Source: Aliirhizobium wenxiniae
GTDB lineage: Bacteria > Pseudomonadota > Alphaproteobacteria > Rhizobiales > Rhizobiaceae
Assembly (NCBI RefSeq): GCF_014201355.1
Contig: NZ_JACHEG010000003.1
Coordinates: forward strand, 62,001 to 126,000
Reading direction: 5' to 3'
DNA: 64,000 nt
A program made the position numbers and the translations under genes. Positions 23,198-34,163 of the stretch are shown here, piece after piece (the first letter of the stretch is position 1; each line of letters begins with the position of its first letter). Under the pieces are notes generated by a model that worked only from the letters and a program-made list of their open reading frames with translations, was not told where the DNA came from and did no database searches.

Positions 23198-23385
23198 GTT
23201 TCCACTCAATATCCAGAAATCGGCTCAGAGGGGCAATGATCGTCCCTGTTCAGGGGCTTAAGCCAAGCGGAGACGTTGTGATATAAGCTCGCAGCGGCGC
23301 CATCGATAGGGTATCTGCGGTTGCACGGCGAGCCGGTGGCATCGACGATCCGTTTGTTGTAACCTCACGGACATTGGGAGGACGC

Positions 23386-25608
23386 ATGGAACGTCGTCTC
23401 GCCGCCATCCTGATCGCAGATGTCGTCGGTTACAGCCGTCTCAGCGAAATCGACGAAGAGAGGACGCGCGCGCAATTTCGGTCCGACACGTACAATATTT
23501 GGGTCCCCACTATCGAGGCCAACAATGGCCGGTTCGTGAAAACACTGGGCGACGGACTGCTCGTGGAATTTCATAGTGTCGTTGACGCTCTTAGGTGCGC
23601 AATCGATGTCCAGAGACAGAAGAGGGAGCAGCGCGATACTTCCGTTGGAGCTGCGCAACTGCAATTCCGCATTGGCATCAATCTCGGGGATGTTCTTGTC
23701 GAGGACGATGATGTGCACGGCGAAGGCGTGAATATCGCCGACCGAATCGAGGCATTGTCCGTGCCTGGCGGCATCGTGATATCCGGCTCCACCTACGATC
23801 AGGTCAGATCCAAGATCAATGTTGAATACGAGTCATTGGGTAGTCGAAAATTCAAGGGTCTCTCCGAGCACATCAGGGTATACCGTGTCTTGGCTGAGGC
23901 GCCGCCACTGCGGCGATTTCCAATCTTCAGGTTCGTATGGCGGAGGCGAATACCGGTTGCAATCACCATGATCGGTGGGCTGATTGCAGTGATCAGCCTG
24001 ACATGGTGGCATGCGCAGTCCACTTTGTTTAACCCGCAGCCGACGGGACAATATGCCTATCCTTTGCCGGACAAACCATCCGTCGCGGTGTTACCCTTCG
24101 CCAATGTGAGCGGTGAGACAACCCGCGATCACTTGGCCGAAGGTCTGACAGATGACCTCATTACCGAACTCTCCAAGGTTTCCGGACTCTTCGTGGTCGC
24201 TCAACATTCTGTCTCGGATGCTCGTGAAAAATCCGGCACGATCCAAGAAGTGGCGTCTGCCCTAGGGGTCCGATATGTGCTCGAAGGGACATTGCAGCGC
24301 GACGGAACACGCCTGAGGATCAATGCCAAGTTGATCGAGGCGATGACAGGCCTGTCGATCTGGGCTGAAAAATACGACCGCCAATATGCTGATCTGTTCA
24401 CCGTTCAGGATGATGTGATAGGACGGATCATATCGGCGCTCTCGGTCAAGTTGAGCAAAGGGGAGCAGCAACAGCTTTCCCGTATGCCTACCGACAGTCT
24501 GGAGGCCTACGACTATTACATGCGGGCCCAGCACGAGGGATTCATCTATGGCGATGTTGATACCTATCGGCGGACATTGTCTTTCTATCAAAAGGCTATC
24601 GAACTCGATCCCCGATTTGCGGACGCCTATGCTGGGATAGCCCGGGTAGCAGTCGACGTCTGGCGTAACGACTACAACTTTATGTGGTCGGCCGCGGTGG
24701 CGCGAAAGATTGCCTATGACGCGGCGGGACAGGCACTGAAATTGGATCCTGAAAATTCCCGGGCGCATACCGTCCTCGCTTTGCTGCAGTGGGTCGACGG
24801 TCACAGCGGCGAAGCGCTTGCGTCGGCCAACAACGCGATAGCGGCCCAACCCAACGACGCAGAGGCGCTTGCCAACCTGGCGCTTATCCAGGCGCATACA
24901 GGCTCGGCTGAGAAGGCTGTTTCCACAATTGAGATGGCGCTCCGGCTCGATCCTTCGCCAGCGCCTGGTTTCAAGCTGCTCGCAGGGATAGTATTTTATA
25001 CCGCGCGTAAGGAAAGTGATGCGATCCCGCTAATCGAGGCAGCGCTGAAGAATCTTCCGAAAACTGAACCGGCCCGGGAATATCTTGCGGCAGCTTACGC
25101 AAACATTGGCGACAAAACGCGTGCGCGAGAGGAAGCGACACGGTTGCTTGGGCTCTTTCCGGAAAGCAATCTGAGCTATTATCGCTATCTCTATGACTAT
25201 TGGCCAGACGAAGATCTCGACCATCATCTTACCGCACTCAAATCCGCCGGCATTCCGGATTGGCCATTCGGCTTCGAGGGCCATGACCGGGATCGTTTAA
25301 CAGAGGCGGATTTGAGGGCTTTGACCGACAATCAGACATGGATTGGCAGGCATCGAAACGGATCCGAATTCCTCCAGTATTTCAGCCCGGACGGAAAGAC
25401 GGCTTACCGCAGCGCCAACACAAGCATTACCGGCACTGCGGAAATCAAGGGCGACAGACTATGCGAGAAGTTCGAGGGTTATTTTCTAGATCGCTTGGTG
25501 TGCGGCACCGTTTATCGCAACGTGAATACGGGGATGGCCAATTTCGCATATGTCCATATTACGCCGCGATCGCTGCAGTATTTCTCGCTTGAGGAAAAAG
25601 CGCGCTGA
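23386..25608 (+). CDS. Class III adenylate cyclase with TolB-like and TPR domains
   Basis: The 740-residue membrane-anchored signalling protein has a cyclase domain at residues about 1-170, with metal-binding Asp in ILIADVVGYSRL, the second Asp in KTLGDGLLVEF, and the transition-state Asn/Arg pair in GVNIADRIEAL. All key residues are present, so it is likely active. One helix (VAITMIGGLIAVISLTWW, about 185-205) leads to a TolB-N-like domain (SVAVLPFANVSGE, then VRYVLEGTLQRDG) and several TPR-like repeats (about 355-600). This architecture is expanded in rhizobia. ATG 23386 has GGGAGG upstream. It may supply cAMP to the cNMP-binding protein at 26912-27367. Confidence 0.9.
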   Translation: MERRLAAILIADVVGYSRLSEIDEERTRAQFRSDTYNIWVPTIEANNGRFVKTLGDGLLVEFHSVVDALRCAIDVQRQKREQRDTSVGAAQLQFRIGINLGDVLVEDDDVHGEGVNIADRIEALSVPGGIVISGSTYDQVRSKINVEYESLGSRKFKGLSEHIRVYRVLAEAPPLRRFPIFRFVWRRRIPVAITMIGGLIAVISLTWWHAQSTLFNPQPTGQYAYPLPDKPSVAVLPFANVSGETTRDHLAEGLTDDLITELSKVSGLFVVAQHSVSDAREKSGTIQEVASALGVRYVLEGTLQRDGTRLRINAKLIEAMTGLSIWAEKYDRQYADLFTVQDDVIGRIISALSVKLSKGEQQQLSRMPTDSLEAYDYYMRAQHEGFIYGDVDTYRRTLSFYQKAIELDPRFADAYAGIARVAVDVWRNDYNFMWSAAVARKIAYDAAGQALKLDPENSRAHTVLALLQWVDGHSGEALASANNAIAAQPNDAEALANLALIQAHTGSAEKAVSTIEMALRLDPSPAPGFKLLAGIVFYTARKESDAIPLIEAALKNLPKTEPAREYLAAAYANIGDKTRAREEATRLLGLFPESNLSYYRYLYDYWPDEDLDHHLTALKSAGIPDWPFGFEGHDRDRLTEADLRALTDNQTWIGRHRNGSEFLQYFSPDGKTAYRSANTSITGTAEIKGDRLCEKFEGYFLDRLVCGTVYRNVNTGMANFAYVHITPRSLQYFSLEEKAR

Positions 25609-25619
25609 TCACAACAACG

Positions 25620-26117
25620 TCATTTCCACTGCTTCTGGATCTTCTCGGATATGAGCGTCTGCTGGACGTCGGCCCAGTGTTTTTGCGATTCCGGCACCTT
25701 TGACTTGTTTGTCTCCATGCCTTCGGCCGCACCGGGATCATAACTGATGTAGAGTTTGCCATCTATGATGCGCCAGGCGCGTGGATCGACATTAGTCGTT
25801 ACCGTCCCGAACGACACGCCATCCGCGCAATATCCCCCGTATTGAGGGGCATAGCGGGAGGGTTCCTTGACGAAAAGATCCCGGTGTTCGGCACTGGCAA
25901 AATACCAGATCGCTCCCAGCCAGCGATGGGAATATTGGGCGTTCCCTTCCACCGCCTTGCCATCGACGAAATAGGCAACCGGGTCATATCCCTTGATCGC
26001 CACATTGCCAAAATAGCCCGTATTCACGAAGTCTTCGCCAGCTGCGGTTTGCGCCAGCGAGGCACAAATTGCCAGCGTAGCCAGCCCAAGATAACGCTTT
26101 TTCCTATCTGTGGACAT
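25620..26117 (-). CDS. Exported YHS-domain protein
   Basis: The 165-residue protein has a signal peptide (LATLAICASLAQTAAGE) followed by a YHS domain (VAIKGYDPVAYFVDGKAVEGN, then IWYFASAEHRDLFVKEPSRYAPQYGGYCA). YHS domains are found in metal-handling proteins and heavy-metal ATPases. The single Cys in GGYCADG is the usual position. Its function in rhizobial periplasm is not established. It converges on the adenylate cyclase gene 12 bases away and is followed upstream by the ankyrin gene on the same strand. Confidence 0.85.
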   Translation of the reverse strand: MSTDRKKRYLGLATLAICASLAQTAAGEDFVNTGYFGNVAIKGYDPVAYFVDGKAVEGNAQYSHRWLGAIWYFASAEHRDLFVKEPSRYAPQYGGYCADGVSFGTVTTNVDPRAWRIIDGKLYISYDPGAAEGMETNKSKVPESQKHWADVQQTLISEKIQKQWK

Positions 26118-26149: not shown

Positions 26150-26746
26150 TCAGGGCGACTTCCGTTTTATGCACTCCTTGTAGAGCGGTTCACCGACGAG
26201 TTCAGCCTTCTGGCATGTTGCCCCCGCCTTGATTAGCATCTCGCCGACATCCCAATATCCGCGCCACCCGGCTTGCGTAAGTGGCGTATAGCCATTCCTC
26301 TCGGTCGCTTCGATATTCGCCTTGTTGGCAACGAGAAATGCGGCGACATCGGCATGACCTTCCTCGGCCGCTGCATGAAGCGGGGACATGTGGTAGAAAT
26401 TTTGGGTGTCGTTAACTGCAGCCCCTTCAGCCACAAGACGTTTCACTATGTCGAGGTTTCCGGCATAGGCGGCGGCGTGCAGCGCAGTCAGCCCGCTTTT
26501 GTTACGGCCCTCTATATCTGCACCGCGGGCGAGAATTAAACCTACGGCGTCGGTATTTCCACTTAGCGAGGCCAGGATGAGAGGCAAATCTCCGGCCTCA
26601 TCCGCATCTGATACATTGTCTCCCGCGTCGAGAGCCTGTGTCAGAAGCGCAAGATTCCCATTCCGTGCTGCCTCGTGTAGCTGGCCTGCGGCCGCCAAAT
26701 TGGCCGATAGAGTGACCAGTAAAAATATCGATTTAGCGAAGATCAC
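26150..26746 (-). CDS. Exported ankyrin-repeat protein
   Basis: The 198-residue protein starts at GTG 26746, chosen because AAGGAGGG stands just upstream; the longer frame lacks a site. A signal peptide (IFLLVTLSANLAAA) precedes four to five ankyrin repeats, such as SGLTALHAAAYAGNLDIVKRLVAEGAAVN and its equivalents. A Cys pair follows in the last 30 residues (ATCQKAELVGEPLYKECI), possibly a disulfide. It is a periplasmic protein-protein interaction module. The neighbouring YHS gene is 32 bases downstream, so the two are probably one operon. Confidence 0.85.
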   Translation of the reverse strand: MIFAKSIFLLVTLSANLAAAGQLHEAARNGNLALLTQALDAGDNVSDADEAGDLPLILASLSGNTDAVGLILARGADIEGRNKSGLTALHAAAYAGNLDIVKRLVAEGAAVNDTQNFYHMSPLHAAAEEGHADVAAFLVANKANIEATERNGYTPLTQAGWRGYWDVGEMLIKAGATCQKAELVGEPLYKECIKRKSP

Positions 26747-26911
26747 GGCACAACCCTCCTTAGCCGGGAGAGCTTCAGGCGCACTCCCACCTGCACGCCG
26801 CATTCAGTAAATCAGGAGGGCGAAATATAGCAGTTGTCAGGTTTTCGAGCAACCAATGCTTCCAAAAGATGGCAAGCGGTCTTCGCCATCTTGCGCTGAA
26901 CCAGATGTTGG

Positions 26912-27367
26912 TCAGTCCGGGGTGGGCGGCAGGCGCGCCTTGACGAGTTCGGCGGTTGTCTTGCTCAAGCGTGTTACAAGCGTGCGCATGATCTCCGAAG
27001 CAACAGCGGGAAATTCGCTGGTTAACGCCAGAAAGTGATCCTGAGAAATACGCAATGCTTCCAATTTCGACGTAGCACGTACCGTTGCCGTGCGTGGAAT
27101 ATTACACAGAATAGACATCTCCCCAACGACCGCATTGCGGCCGACTTCCGCGACGGTCAGCTCGCCGGAGGCAGATGATACGATCACGTTTGCCGTGCCG
27201 GATAGCAACACAAAGGCGGCATCGCCCTGGTCACCTTGGCGGAAAAGATCCTGGCCTTTTCGGTATGTCATGCGATCGCAAGCGAAAGCGAGCAGCTTCA
27301 GCTTAGACGGCTCGATGCTTGCGAAGATAGGTACTTCCTTCAATGTCTGGACCTCATCGCTAAGCAA
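26912..27367 (-). CDS. Cyclic nucleotide-binding domain protein
   Basis: The 151-residue protein is a single cNMP-binding domain (Crp/PKA-type beta-roll), with FRQGDQGDAAFVLLSG and the phosphate-binding-cassette region GEMSILCNIPRTATVRA, where Glu and Arg normally hold the cyclic phosphate and ribose. There is no DNA-binding domain, so it should act as a regulatory subunit. It lies 43 bases downstream of the degenerate ABC exporter on the same strand, suggesting that it regulates that membrane protein. Confidence 0.88.
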   Translation of the reverse strand: MLSDEVQTLKEVPIFASIEPSKLKLLAFACDRMTYRKGQDLFRQGDQGDAAFVLLSGTANVIVSSASGELTVAEVGRNAVVGEMSILCNIPRTATVRATSKLEALRISQDHFLALTSEFPAVASEIMRTLVTRLSKTTAELVKARLPPTPD

Positions 27368-27410: not shown

Positions 27411-30143
27411 TCATCGGTGGTCGGAAGGCAAGTCTAGGAACTCTCGAAACGCGGCATTTGACCGCGCTAGTTCAAAATAGGTCCCATTGCCGATCAACGA
27501 TCCACGCTGAAAAAATAGCACCCGATCGAAAATTTGCGCCACACGCGGATCGGAAAGGCCCCACAGGATAGTGGAGGCTTGCTCCGCCTTGTTTCGCCGT
27601 TGGACGATGCCCCGCGTGATCTCTTCGTCAACCCGCTGGTCAAGTGCCGACAAAGGCCTGTTGAATATAGTGAAGTCCGAGCGTTTCATCAACGCACGAG
27701 CAAGATTGAGCTTTTGCCGCTGTGCCAGCGAAAGACGTTTTCCTCCAGCGCCAACGTCAAACTGCAGACCCAGCGACAAGACATTCTCATAAAGACCCGC
27801 CGCGCGAAACAGCTCCTTCACAACGGCCTGAATATGGGCATCGGCGTCGGCCACCTGAGAGGCGATGCGGCCGAACAACACATTGTCGAGTACCGTCGCC
27901 GATGCGGTAACGCGTTCGGGATCATGGCGGTTAATCAGGTTTGCTATGTCGTCGGGAATGTCCGTATGAAAGAGTTTCCGCGCGGCCACAACCCGGTCCA
28001 TCATTGGCTCGGTGAGAATGCCGAAGCGGTGAAACGGTTCGATATAAGCCAGGCTCAGTACGATAATCGATGCGCGATCTTCAGGGGGGATGTGCTCAAA
28101 GCGAAGCCCGCGGCATCGCGACAACGTTGCCTGATAGATCGGAATCTCTTCCGCAGCCATAAATGTAAGCCTGCGAAAGAAAGAATGCTGGGGTGCCACG
28201 TCGCGGAAGAGTTCGACGGTGGTTTCAGCGATCTCCAAGCCCATTTCATAGAGGCTATGATCGAGGCCGGTCGAATTCAGAACCCGCTGGAAACAGGGGT
28301 GTGTGATCACGTCAAGGTCGGGGGAGGTTCCCCGGCTCCAGGTTCCGAAGAAGAGGTTTTCTCCGACGCTCGCCTGTATGTTGTAGCGATCGAAATCGAG
28401 CGGTATGAGCATTTCGTCAAGTTGCGTCTCTACCAGACGCTTGCGCAGGGAGCCACGCAGTTCGACGATCCTCCCGCTAACGGCCGATTGCTCTTTCGTA
28501 TCGATCGTGGAGCGCAGTCCCAGCCCGAAAATGTCACCGGATATCTGCAAGTCGTCCAATGTCGGCAGGACCTTATGGAGAAGATCGTCCAGCCCATCTG
28601 CTCCGACTGCCTGGTAGTCAATCCAATTCCCGTGTGGCGAGAAGTCGACATTTCCTGCCATGCGCGCCTCGATGGCATAGCGCTCCGATTCAATCCGCCG
28701 CTCGTTGTGAGTCGTTGCACTTGGCCTTGGAGCATTTTTCAGTCCATAAAGTAGATTGTCCATCACACTGCCATGCAGCAAAAACGGCTCGCCTGAAGCG
28801 TAGGCAATACGTTGTCCCGTAATCGACTCCGGCATATCGAGCAGATCTTGATCACCAATCGTAATGCCGCCGAATTCCGGCCAGACGAGACGAGCGAGAG
28901 CCTCTGCAAACGCTTCCGCTCCGCTGCCGGCGGCACCTACGAGGGCGACAGTCTCATTGGGTTTAATCTCGGCGGAAACCCCATCCAGCAGCCTCGCTCC
29001 AGTATCGTCGACAAGTGTGAGATTGTTGATGATGATGGAAGTCTCCAGTCGTGAAGTCGGTCCACTGGCAGGCGCGTGAACCGATTGCGCGATAAGCGGT
29101 TCGACGCTGAACTGGTCGCATACTGTTCCGTACTTTATCTGCACGTCCTGGCGTGCCTGATCCCAGTCGATGAGATCCTTTAATGGGCTTGGAAGATCCT
29201 TGTAGGCGGCAATGACGGCGACGAGCTGTCCTAGATCGAGCTTTCCGATCAAAACGAAATAGCCGCCGAAAGCATAGAAGATGAACGGAGTGACCTGAGC
29301 GATGAGATTGTTGACAAACTTTACCAGAAACTTCCACCGATAAAGGTCGTAGCGGATCGAGAAAATCCGGCCAAGGCGCCAAGCGATGTCGGCGCGTTCG
29401 AGATTGGAAGTATCGTTGCTGTGGACTGCTCCGATGCCGTCGACGATTTCGCTGACACGGCCCGAAAATTCGCGCGCAGTCAATTGGCGCAAGCGCCCGA
29501 GTTCCAGCACCCTTCGACGCATCCGCGGTACGATGCTCAGCTGTATCCCTACGATGCCGGCGGTGAGCATACCAAGCCACACATTCTGAACGATGATGAA
29601 ACCAAGCGTTGTCAGCGCCTGCCCACCAAGTAGAGCGGGCAGAACGAACGCGTCCCCTGTAAAGCCTCCTAGTGGTTCCACCTCGTCCTTGACCATGCTG
29701 GCGATTTCGGCGGATTTGAGCCGTTTAAAATGTTTGGGAGGAAAGCGCAGTACCCTGTCTACGAGTTCGAAGCGAATACGACGCAGCATCCGTTCGCCGA
29801 GCCTGCCCTTGTATGTATTGATGTAGAACTTGAAGAGCCCGTTTATCAGCACCAGAAGCAGGAATGTTGTGCTCAGGGCCATAAGCATCTGCTGGCGATT
29901 AAGATCTATACCGCTGAAAACTTCCGCACGCCCGATCAATGGAAGGTCGTAGACAACTCGGAAAAACGGCTGTCGCGCATCCAGTGCTTCAAAGCCGTTA
30001 CCCTGAATTGGGCCATTGATGATCTGCTTCGGCAGGTCGAAGGCCAAAAAATACGGTACCATGGATGCCGCCACGACGAGCAGGATCCAAAGTTGTTGCC
30101 TGCGGGTATGACTCCAGATGTAGCGGAGTAGGCTCCTTTCCAT
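27411..30143 (-). CDS. ABC-exporter-like membrane protein with degenerate nucleotide-binding motifs
   Basis: The product has about 910 residues from ATG 30143 (a TTG at 30188 is possible). The first 320 residues are a six-helix ABC exporter membrane domain. The nucleotide-binding domain then begins, but every key motif is altered. Walker A reads GAAGSGAEA (Lys lost, near residue 403). The signature reads LSLAQ (near 803). Walker B reads FTIFNRPLSALD (Asp-Glu replaced by Asn-Arg). The switch His is lost in LWGLSD. About 400 residues separate Walker A from the signature, against about 100 normally. The insert repeats a segment like SVMDNLLYG (ASVGENLFFG, ATVLDNVLFG). It is followed by the cNMP-binding gene. 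It is unlikely to hydrolyse ATP; a regulated channel, receptor or scaffold is possible. Confidence 0.8.
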   Translation of the reverse strand: MERSLLRYIWSHTRRQQLWILLVVAASMVPYFLAFDLPKQIINGPIQGNGFEALDARQPFFRVVYDLPLIGRAEVFSGIDLNRQQMLMALSTTFLLLVLINGLFKFYINTYKGRLGERMLRRIRFELVDRVLRFPPKHFKRLKSAEIASMVKDEVEPLGGFTGDAFVLPALLGGQALTTLGFIIVQNVWLGMLTAGIVGIQLSIVPRMRRRVLELGRLRQLTAREFSGRVSEIVDGIGAVHSNDTSNLERADIAWRLGRIFSIRYDLYRWKFLVKFVNNLIAQVTPFIFYAFGGYFVLIGKLDLGQLVAVIAAYKDLPSPLKDLIDWDQARQDVQIKYGTVCDQFSVEPLIAQSVHAPASGPTSRLETSIIINNLTLVDDTGARLLDGVSAEIKPNETVALVGAAGSGAEAFAEALARLVWPEFGGITIGDQDLLDMPESITGQRIAYASGEPFLLHGSVMDNLLYGLKNAPRPSATTHNERRIESERYAIEARMAGNVDFSPHGNWIDYQAVGADGLDDLLHKVLPTLDDLQISGDIFGLGLRSTIDTKEQSAVSGRIVELRGSLRKRLVETQLDEMLIPLDFDRYNIQASVGENLFFGTWSRGTSPDLDVITHPCFQRVLNSTGLDHSLYEMGLEIAETTVELFRDVAPQHSFFRRLTFMAAEEIPIYQATLSRCRGLRFEHIPPEDRASIIVLSLAYIEPFHRFGILTEPMMDRVVAARKLFHTDIPDDIANLINRHDPERVTASATVLDNVLFGRIASQVADADAHIQAVVKELFRAAGLYENVLSLGLQFDVGAGGKRLSLAQRQKLNLARALMKRSDFTIFNRPLSALDQRVDEEITRGIVQRRNKAEQASTILWGLSDPRVAQIFDRVLFFQRGSLIGNGTYFELARSNAAFREFLDLPSDHR

Positions 30144-34163
<4,020 letters not shown>

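Follow-up and report, generated by a model that had tools for sequence, protein, structure and literature searches.

Introduction

Exporters of the type IV fold of the ATP-binding cassette (ABC) superfamily, such as MsbA, the NdvA/ChvA glucan exporters, ComA/PCAT, TmrAB and TM287/288, are the described systems closest to P0001, a protein encoded in a 64,000-nucleotide stretch of the Aliirhizobium wenxiniae genome (contig NZ_JACHEG010000003.1, positions 62,001 to 126,000; hereafter the window). P0001 shares the membrane domain and the nucleotide-binding domain (NBD) fold of these exporters, lacks the residues of a working ATPase, and is encoded next to P0002, a single-domain protein predicted to bind cyclic nucleoside monophosphates (cNMP). 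SUR and CFTR are ABC proteins other than pumps; both are fused, double-length chains that still bind ATP. A non-pump use of the ABC fold is also what we propose for P0001, which differs in being half-size, in having no recognisable ATP site and in having a bacterial cNMP partner.

An ABC exporter fold together with a cNMP-type domain is also found in HetC of Nostoc. HetC is reported to be a peptidase-containing exporter with a C39 peptidase, an ATPase catalytic residue that is essential in vivo and an N-terminal cNMP domain, which bound guanosine tetraphosphate (ppGpp), while cyclic AMP (cAMP) gave no detectable stabilisation (PMC10986499). In the family described here the cNMP part is either encoded separately or fused to the C-terminus of the ABC protein, and the ATPase positions are lost in P0001. 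CyaC of Sinorhizobium meliloti is described as a quinone-redox-responsive adenylate cyclase with haems and 2Fe-2S that acts with the regulators Clr and CycR, and a search of that text for the word 'ABC' came back empty (PMC10463352). Among open-licence papers, judged by titles and the beginnings of abstracts, no description of the P0001 family was found.

Results

P0001 has an exporter fold and none of the ATPase residues

The sequence-only reading of the window had the cNMP gene following the ABC gene in one operon. Both genes lie on the minus strand, and the cNMP gene begins 43 bp past the ABC stop. The features in question are as follows.

27411..30143, minus strand: P0001, degenerate ABC exporter of 910 amino acids (aa), from the first ATG (PF00664 and PF00005)
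29109..30143, minus strand: P0001 transmembrane domain, residues 1-345 (Pfam, AlphaFold2 model, substitution rates)
28911..28937, minus strand: degenerate Walker A GAAGSGAEA, Ala409 replacing Lys and Glu410 replacing Ser/Thr
28413..28826, minus strand: repeat R1, residues 440-577, first copy of the Q-loop/NLLYG/helical segment (hhalign)
27939..28430, minus strand: repeat R2, residues 572-735, second copy (hhalign)
27594..27959, minus strand: repeat R3, residues 729-850, third copy, running into the signature and Walker B (hhalign)
27939..28715, minus strand: insert, residues 477-735, helical in the model (AlphaFold2 model, Pfam and PDB searches)
27711..27734, minus strand: signature-like LSLAQRQK, Gly-Gly missing
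27639..27671, minus strand: Walker B-like TIFNRPLSALD, Asn828 replacing Asp and Arg829 replacing Glu
27540..27572, minus strand: switch region TILWGLSDPRV, with Ser864 at the His position
26912..27367, minus strand: P0002, single-domain cNMP-binding protein of 151 aa (PF00027 only, E 1.8e-20)
27083..27124, minus strand: P0002 phosphate-binding cassette GEMSILCNIPRTAT, residues 82-95, with Glu and Arg

A further in-frame TTG lies upstream of the P0001 start at 30188, and Met1 is invariant across 46 aligned rows. The membrane domain matched PF00664 with 56.5 bits (cut-off 28), and an ABC NBD (PF00005, 45.6 bits) was recognised over two separate stretches; these were the only Pfam matches, and no C39 peptidase was found. 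The AlphaFold2 model of P0001 matches exporter structures, including TmrAB, TM287/288 and TAP, and also SUR chains. Among the best 25 of 147 NCBIfam matches to P0001 none reaches its cut-off, with scores of 136.7 for MsbA (cut-off 602), 68.9 for ChvA (585.4) and 53.7 for PglK (1000) among the equivalog and subfamily models. The fold itself, that of a type IV exporter, is a known one; the ATPase residues are missing, and none of these 25 NCBIfam matches allows an assignment.

We scored eight positions whose functional roles in ABC ATPases are established: the Walker A Lys and Ser/Thr, the Q-loop Gln, the two signature Gly, the Walker B Asp and Glu, and the switch His. P0001 has none of them, compared to eight of eight in each of four canonical exporters of the same genome (a fifth, L003, gave no alignment at the motifs and was left out). 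The degenerate strings GAAGSGAEA, LSLAQ and FNRPLSALD and the missing switch His, all picked out by the sequence-only reading, were recovered in this comparison. Its broader statement that all ATPase motifs are lost holds for P0001 and nearly so for the clade to which it belongs, but not for the wider family, in which the loss is graded (see below).

The gene was also rightly taken for a maintained one and not a pseudogene. Its 910 codons are open, and the ratio of non-synonymous to synonymous substitution rates (dN/dS) against four close relatives stays below 0.25 in every region, which indicates that the gene is maintained; in two of these four comparisons dS is above 1. The whole-gene ratio is 0.10-0.15. 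The membrane domain (residues 1-360) is the most constrained part with 0.04-0.09, followed by the NBD parts with 0.09-0.16 and the insert with 0.17-0.25.

Compared to type IV exporters, P0001 has about 300 additional residues, which hold tandem helical copies. In 100 family members including the window, 372-428 residues (median 399) separate Walker A from the signature, as opposed to 102 in the four exporters of the same genome, in line with the fourfold distance noted earlier. The SVxxNxLFG-like segments within this region are true repeats: R1, R2 and R3 align with one another in hhalign with probabilities of 94.2-98.4% (E 1e-7 to 6e-15, 54-64 columns), while column-shuffled R2, in 40 comparisons, never exceeded 12.5%. 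Searches with residues 470-748 gave neither a Pfam match nor a clear PDB match for the insert. In the model, a beta element (29901..29972, minus strand, residues 58-81) stands between helices ending at residue 46 and starting at residue 83, and would probably lie in the periplasm.

Motif loss is old in the window clade and graded across the family

Relatives of P0001 were sought in genome draws that overlap one another. Matches occurred in 36 of 57 genomes of the genus (E 1e-60), in 98 of 297 of the order (E 1e-40) and in 132 of 385 of the class Alphaproteobacteria (profile search, E 1e-40); all 30 matching genomes among 398 Pseudomonadota belong to this class, in a draw whose share of genomes from other classes is not stated. 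A scan of genome contigs gave at least 582 relatives, the best 80 of which are mostly from Rhizobium, Sinorhizobium/Ensifer, Mesorhizobium and Phyllobacterium. A match was also found in 262 plasmid records; in those listed, the gene is called 'ABC transporter ATP-binding protein' or similar, once 'hypothetical protein', or is unannotated. A. wenxiniae itself carries a second copy with 50% identity to P0001 and its own cNMP protein alongside.

The eight positions were then compared in 100 members (the window and 99 fetched loci, excluding L310, which has a membrane domain only). No member has the complete set: 27 keep none, 22 one, 21 two, 24 three, five keep four, and the best keeps five. The two signature Gly never occur together (0 of 100). 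The Walker A Lys position is occupied by Lys in 39 and by Arg in 40 members, the neighbouring Ser/Thr position is acidic in 75, and the Walker B Asp is an Asn in 52; the Walker B Glu is retained in 34 and the switch His in 17.

A quick tree was built from the membrane domain alone; support is weak for 42 of its 102 inner branches. In this tree the window falls into a clade of 17 rows (SH-like approximate likelihood ratio test 99) from all of which the Lys, the Gln, the Walker B Asp and Glu and the His are lost. Close relatives with intact Walker motifs, which would point to a recent decay, were not encountered among the 100 members, and recent decay was rejected because the whole clade has lost the key residues while the gene is under purifying selection. 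Judged from these alignments, the loss is old in the window clade and graded in the other members. Rooting with canonical exporters gave branches too long for the tree to settle the ancestral state of the motifs.

Members with an acidic residue at the Walker A Ser/Thr position tend to have lost the Walker B Asp (66/9/9/16, Fisher p 1e-6). A carboxylate swap between the two motifs was considered, but the association is not significant once kinship is taken into account (median p 0.25), and the swap survives as an idea only.

The cNMP partner is conserved where the ATPase is not

With CRP/FNR regulators P0002 shares the cNMP-binding domain, including an intact phosphate-binding cassette, in which we take the Glu and the Arg to play their usual roles. 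It has no C-terminal DNA-binding helix-turn-helix as found in these regulators, PF00027 being its only Pfam match. P0002 has four matches in its own genome, the top two of which adjoin the two ABC genes.

Pairing with a cNMP part extends through the family. A first set of 122 loci, some of which overlap one another, had a separate cNMP gene in 98 cases, a fused domain in 14 and none in ten; the 98 include L117, with a CRP-like protein of 320 aa at a distance of 997 bp. Two of the ten loci without cNMP are cut at the end (L084, L085), four have the membrane domain only and the remaining four fall into the aberrant L086 subfamily. A longer copy of L085 (L125) is fused, and the open frame of L084 runs to 1092 aa. 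In the wide set of 101 loci, counted on all stop-to-stop frames because the gene caller misses small genes (with it, the cNMP gene was adjacent at 68 of 98 loci), the cNMP gene is adjacent downstream on the same strand in 89, fused at the C-terminus in eight, 619 bp away in one and missing in three. One of these three is the membrane-domain-only locus L310, so that 98 of 100 members have the cNMP part adjacent, near or fused, far from an absence at most loci.

Among the 98 cNMP domains, 93 could be picked and aligned; the cassette Gly is present in 93, the Glu in 86 and the Arg in 91. As the cassette is retained and the ATPase motifs are not, the messenger-binding side is conserved where the ATP side is not.

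Two further observations concern deviating members. The fused form L148 (genome G675) belongs to a fused clade that retains Walker A GKS together with Walker B DE; at L124, which overlaps L148, the upstream genes resemble, by eye, an MBL-fold protein and a voltage-gated ion channel. L086-L088, L117 and L118 are relatives of 850-947 aa whose best match spans the NBD and repeat region only; in their N-terminal half this membrane domain can barely be made out, and their motifs are degraded further.

Family genes are linked to glycosyltransferases

In 98 wide loci, those where the gene caller detected the family gene, the neighbours include GT28-like (72 loci), GT4 (61), deacetylase-like (46), Methyltransf_17 (20) and MBL-fold (13) proteins; the deacetylase-like protein was named by eye and has no Pfam match. 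Two gene orders emerged from 41 maps. In one, deacetylase, GT28, GT4, GT4 and GT28 genes run divergently to the ABC gene; in the other, GT28, GT4 and GT28 lie upstream on the strand of the ABC gene. The one GT4 protein tested is nearest to EpsE of exopolysaccharide synthesis, with a score far below the cut-off.

A background frequency was determined for the GT28-like gene alone among these neighbours. Each of 39 family-bearing genomes has exactly one strong GT28-like match (E <1e-90), which lies within 20 kb of a family gene in 35 of them (by eye; the exceptions are G675, G343, G095 and G274). The GT28-like gene is present in 126 of the 385 genomes of the class. Both genes occur in 125 genomes, the family gene only in seven, the GT28-like gene only in one (G732) and neither in 252 (phi 0.95; Fisher p 1e-91, with kinship ignored).

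The locus of the A. wenxiniae paralogue (L165) has GT4, deacetylase-like and UGD genes, and the GT28-like gene is about 14 kb away. Since glycan genes accompany the paralogue and not the window copy, the latter may be a specialised duplicate. The sequence-only reading had missed the glycan link, and likewise the fused forms, the relatives that have the membrane domain only and the motifs that distant members retain in part.

At L129-L168 and L251-L310 an ABC transporter of the oligopeptide type sometimes accompanies the glycan cluster (OppB-like at 18 of 98 loci). At L165 and L166, cytochrome o oxidase and SURF1-like genes (annotation from the related locus L250) stand beside two different family copies, on opposite sides, which is either chance or a respiratory link.

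Class III cyclases are enriched near family genes

An adenylate cyclase had been placed 2-5 kb from the ABC gene. The window does encode a class III cyclase, at a distance of 1.8 kb and on the opposite strand, separated from the cNMP gene by two genes.

26150..26803, minus strand: ankyrin-like protein (named by eye), a loose part at most, in a block kept in close relatives
25620..26117, minus strand: YHS-like secreted protein (named by eye), a loose part at most, in the same block
23374..25608, plus strand: P0003, class III cyclase with TPR region (PF00211 42.3 bits, cut-off 21.9)

By eye, P0003 appears to have the Asp pair that presumably holds the metal as well as the Asn/Arg pair. It is one of three class III cyclases found in the A. 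wenxiniae genome. The block of ABC, cNMP, ankyrin, YHS and cyclase genes is kept in three of the four closest long-flank relatives (L169, L170 and L172, not L171) and in none of six more distant ones.

Across the family, 34 cyclase open reading frames (ORFs) were found in 31 of 101 loci, against an expectation of 3.9 based on the 417 PF00211 matches that 39 family-bearing genomes contain in 195 Mb. The 34 include P0003 although the bases of the window were left out; without it the count is 33 ORFs in 30 loci. The background comes from the genomes of the first 40 loci only, which hold 24 ORFs in 0.75 Mb, and the other 60 loci hold nine in 1.07 Mb. The Poisson value of 9e-21 is a guide only, as kinship is ignored and the two counts were made with different models. 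Of the first 41 loci, 21 have a cyclase; in 15 it lies downstream at no more than 3 kb and on the strand of the family gene.

The linked cyclases fall mainly into three groups, while P0003 belongs to another group and lies on the other strand. The cyclase link thus stands as an enrichment, but P0003 qualifies as a conserved partner only in part: it is linked in L169, L170 and L172, and other loci carry the three other groups. AC2 cyclases, neighbours in eight of 41 loci, resemble CyaC; the one tested has a Fer2 and a cyclase domain, whereas Pfam found no Fer2 domain in P0003.

The MBL-fold neighbour was considered as a cyclic-nucleotide phosphodiesterase and is not claimed as such (43.7 bits, cut-off 400). 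L154, L155, L164 and L167 share a neighbour protein cluster, one tested member of which is a DUF3095 protein; its start resembles a class III cyclase by eye, and the cluster may be an additional nucleotide-signalling part. Elsewhere in the window (30720-32736, minus strand), two neighbouring aldo/keto reductase-like genes, named by eye, have the look of a tandem duplication.

The membrane domain also occurs without the NBD

Frames with the same membrane domain but without an NBD were present in all 11 loci examined for this, one frame reaching the contig end, and none of these 11 stretches has a cNMP domain. The two tested with Pfam (L316, L127) match PF00664 and no NBD family. K105, N109, E117, R124, E154 and P169 are invariant in eight aligned membrane-domain-only rows, and R224, R264 and N279 in all seven rows reaching that far, while N101, R118 and E146 vary among the eight.

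At L316 (2194-3231, minus strand), a 345-aa form stands divergent from two GT28-like and two GT4 genes, with other genes (named by eye) downstream; here the NBD was apparently lost right at the glycan locus. The membrane domain can accordingly persist without any NBD, glycan locus included.

In L116, L126, L127, L315 and L310 (7668-8894), NBD-free membrane domains neighbour genes for metal handling, among them multicopper oxidase and cupredoxin-like ones; most of these names were given by eye. A multicopper oxidase was found at four of them (L126, copper_res_A with 680.5 bits; L116, L127 and L315 by eye). These five are possibly a separate family of NBD-free ABC membrane proteins.

Discussion

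Our findings suggest that P0001 and P0002 may be two subunits of one inner-membrane complex with the fold of an ABC exporter, which would have abandoned its ATP motor, be switched by a cyclic nucleotide and serve an envelope glycan pathway. We put the chances of this reading at about even. The earlier suggestion from the sequence alone, a cyclic-nucleotide-controlled pseudo-ABC channel, scaffold or receptor, has partial support. The NBD would be retained as a folded platform, enlarged by the repeated helical segments, and provide the seat for the cNMP-binding protein; the fused forms argue for a direct contact of the ABC and cNMP parts. In place of ATP hydrolysis, a bound cyclic nucleotide (probably cAMP made by a linked cyclase) would then shift the conformation of the membrane domain, with the linked cyclases supplying the second messenger at some loci. 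The complex would regulate or conduct a step in the making of a cell-envelope glycan that uses the GT28-like and GT4 glycosyltransferases.

Several observations weigh against this reading. Distant members retain the Walker A Lys (39 of 100), the Walker B Glu (34) or the switch His (17), and L251 keeps Lys, Asp, Glu and His, so that ATP binding may persist there. A nearby cNMP gene is missing from two full-length members (L298, L300), the fetched stretch contains no cyclase at 70 of 101 loci, and the locus in the window has no GT28-like, GT4 or other glycan-cluster genes. The precedent of HetC, with ppGpp instead of cAMP, bears by analogy on the ligand of the cNMP part.

What a cNMP-switched class of this kind would do can be narrowed tentatively. 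Possibly, the membrane domain acts as an ATP-free conduit or scramblase for a precursor of the GT28-like/GT4 glycan, with the NBD as scaffold, and the membrane-domain-only relatives are the same device freed of NBD and switch. A rival that we rate well below the main reading is a signalling scaffold or receptor that moves nothing, whose membrane domain would sense the state of the envelope or a lipid-linked glycan and report to, or localise, the cyclases and glycosyltransferases. Such a role would suit the degenerate NBD with its enlarged helical platform, the enrichment of cyclases and the co-occurrence with a glycosyltransferase. The non-transporting SUR chains are among the structural matches as well, but so are ordinary transporters, and a membrane domain that is the most constrained part and occurs without the NBD fits a conduit at least equally.

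Rather unlikely is an ABC protein that binds ATP, hydrolyses it poorly or not at all, and would be gated by ATP and cNMP jointly, by analogy with CFTR or SUR. The many members with Lys or Arg in Walker A and the 34 with the Walker B Glu are in its favour, as is the joint change of the Walker A acid and the Walker B Asp, as if a metal-site carboxylate had moved; yet this association does not withstand correction for relatedness, P0001 keeps none of the positions, and none of the members examined has the signature Gly pair. We regard as improbable that P0001 serves as the inactive half in a heterodimeric exporter, with ATP hydrolysed by a canonical partner encoded elsewhere. TmrAB, TM287/288 and TAP, all among the structural matches, are heterodimeric exporters with one degenerate site, in which one composite site stays intact, but P0001 deviates in Walker A, in Walker B and in the signature, and a second exporter was not seen among 40 neighbour clusters from the surroundings of family genes, of which the mixed ABC cluster c4 was looked through only partly. 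That P0001 is a decaying, functionless gene is hardly credible: some copies are split or interrupted elsewhere (G040, G049; L228), but selection on the gene, relatives in about a third of the sampled genomes of the class and a conserved partner already contradict it.

ABC proteins are taken as ATP-driven. If the cNMP-switched reading is true, members that abandoned ATP and are kept class-wide show an exporter fold run by another switch, and P0001 may be a membrane device run by a second messenger in place of ATP; an ATP-free gating driven by cNMP would be categorically new. The 'ATP-binding' in the gene names of the plasmid records may then be wrong. Through the pairing, single-domain cNMP proteins that have no DNA-binding part also gain a candidate direct target. 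It is found in symbionts that are tractable, among them Sinorhizobium meliloti and Rhizobium leguminosarum, where the genes of bv. trifolii WSM2304 are RLEG2_RS29840 and RS29845. About one third of the sampled alphaproteobacterial genomes carry the family, nearly always together with one particular glycosyltransferase. This co-occurrence suggests that an undescribed envelope-glycan pathway, controlled by a second messenger, may be in view.

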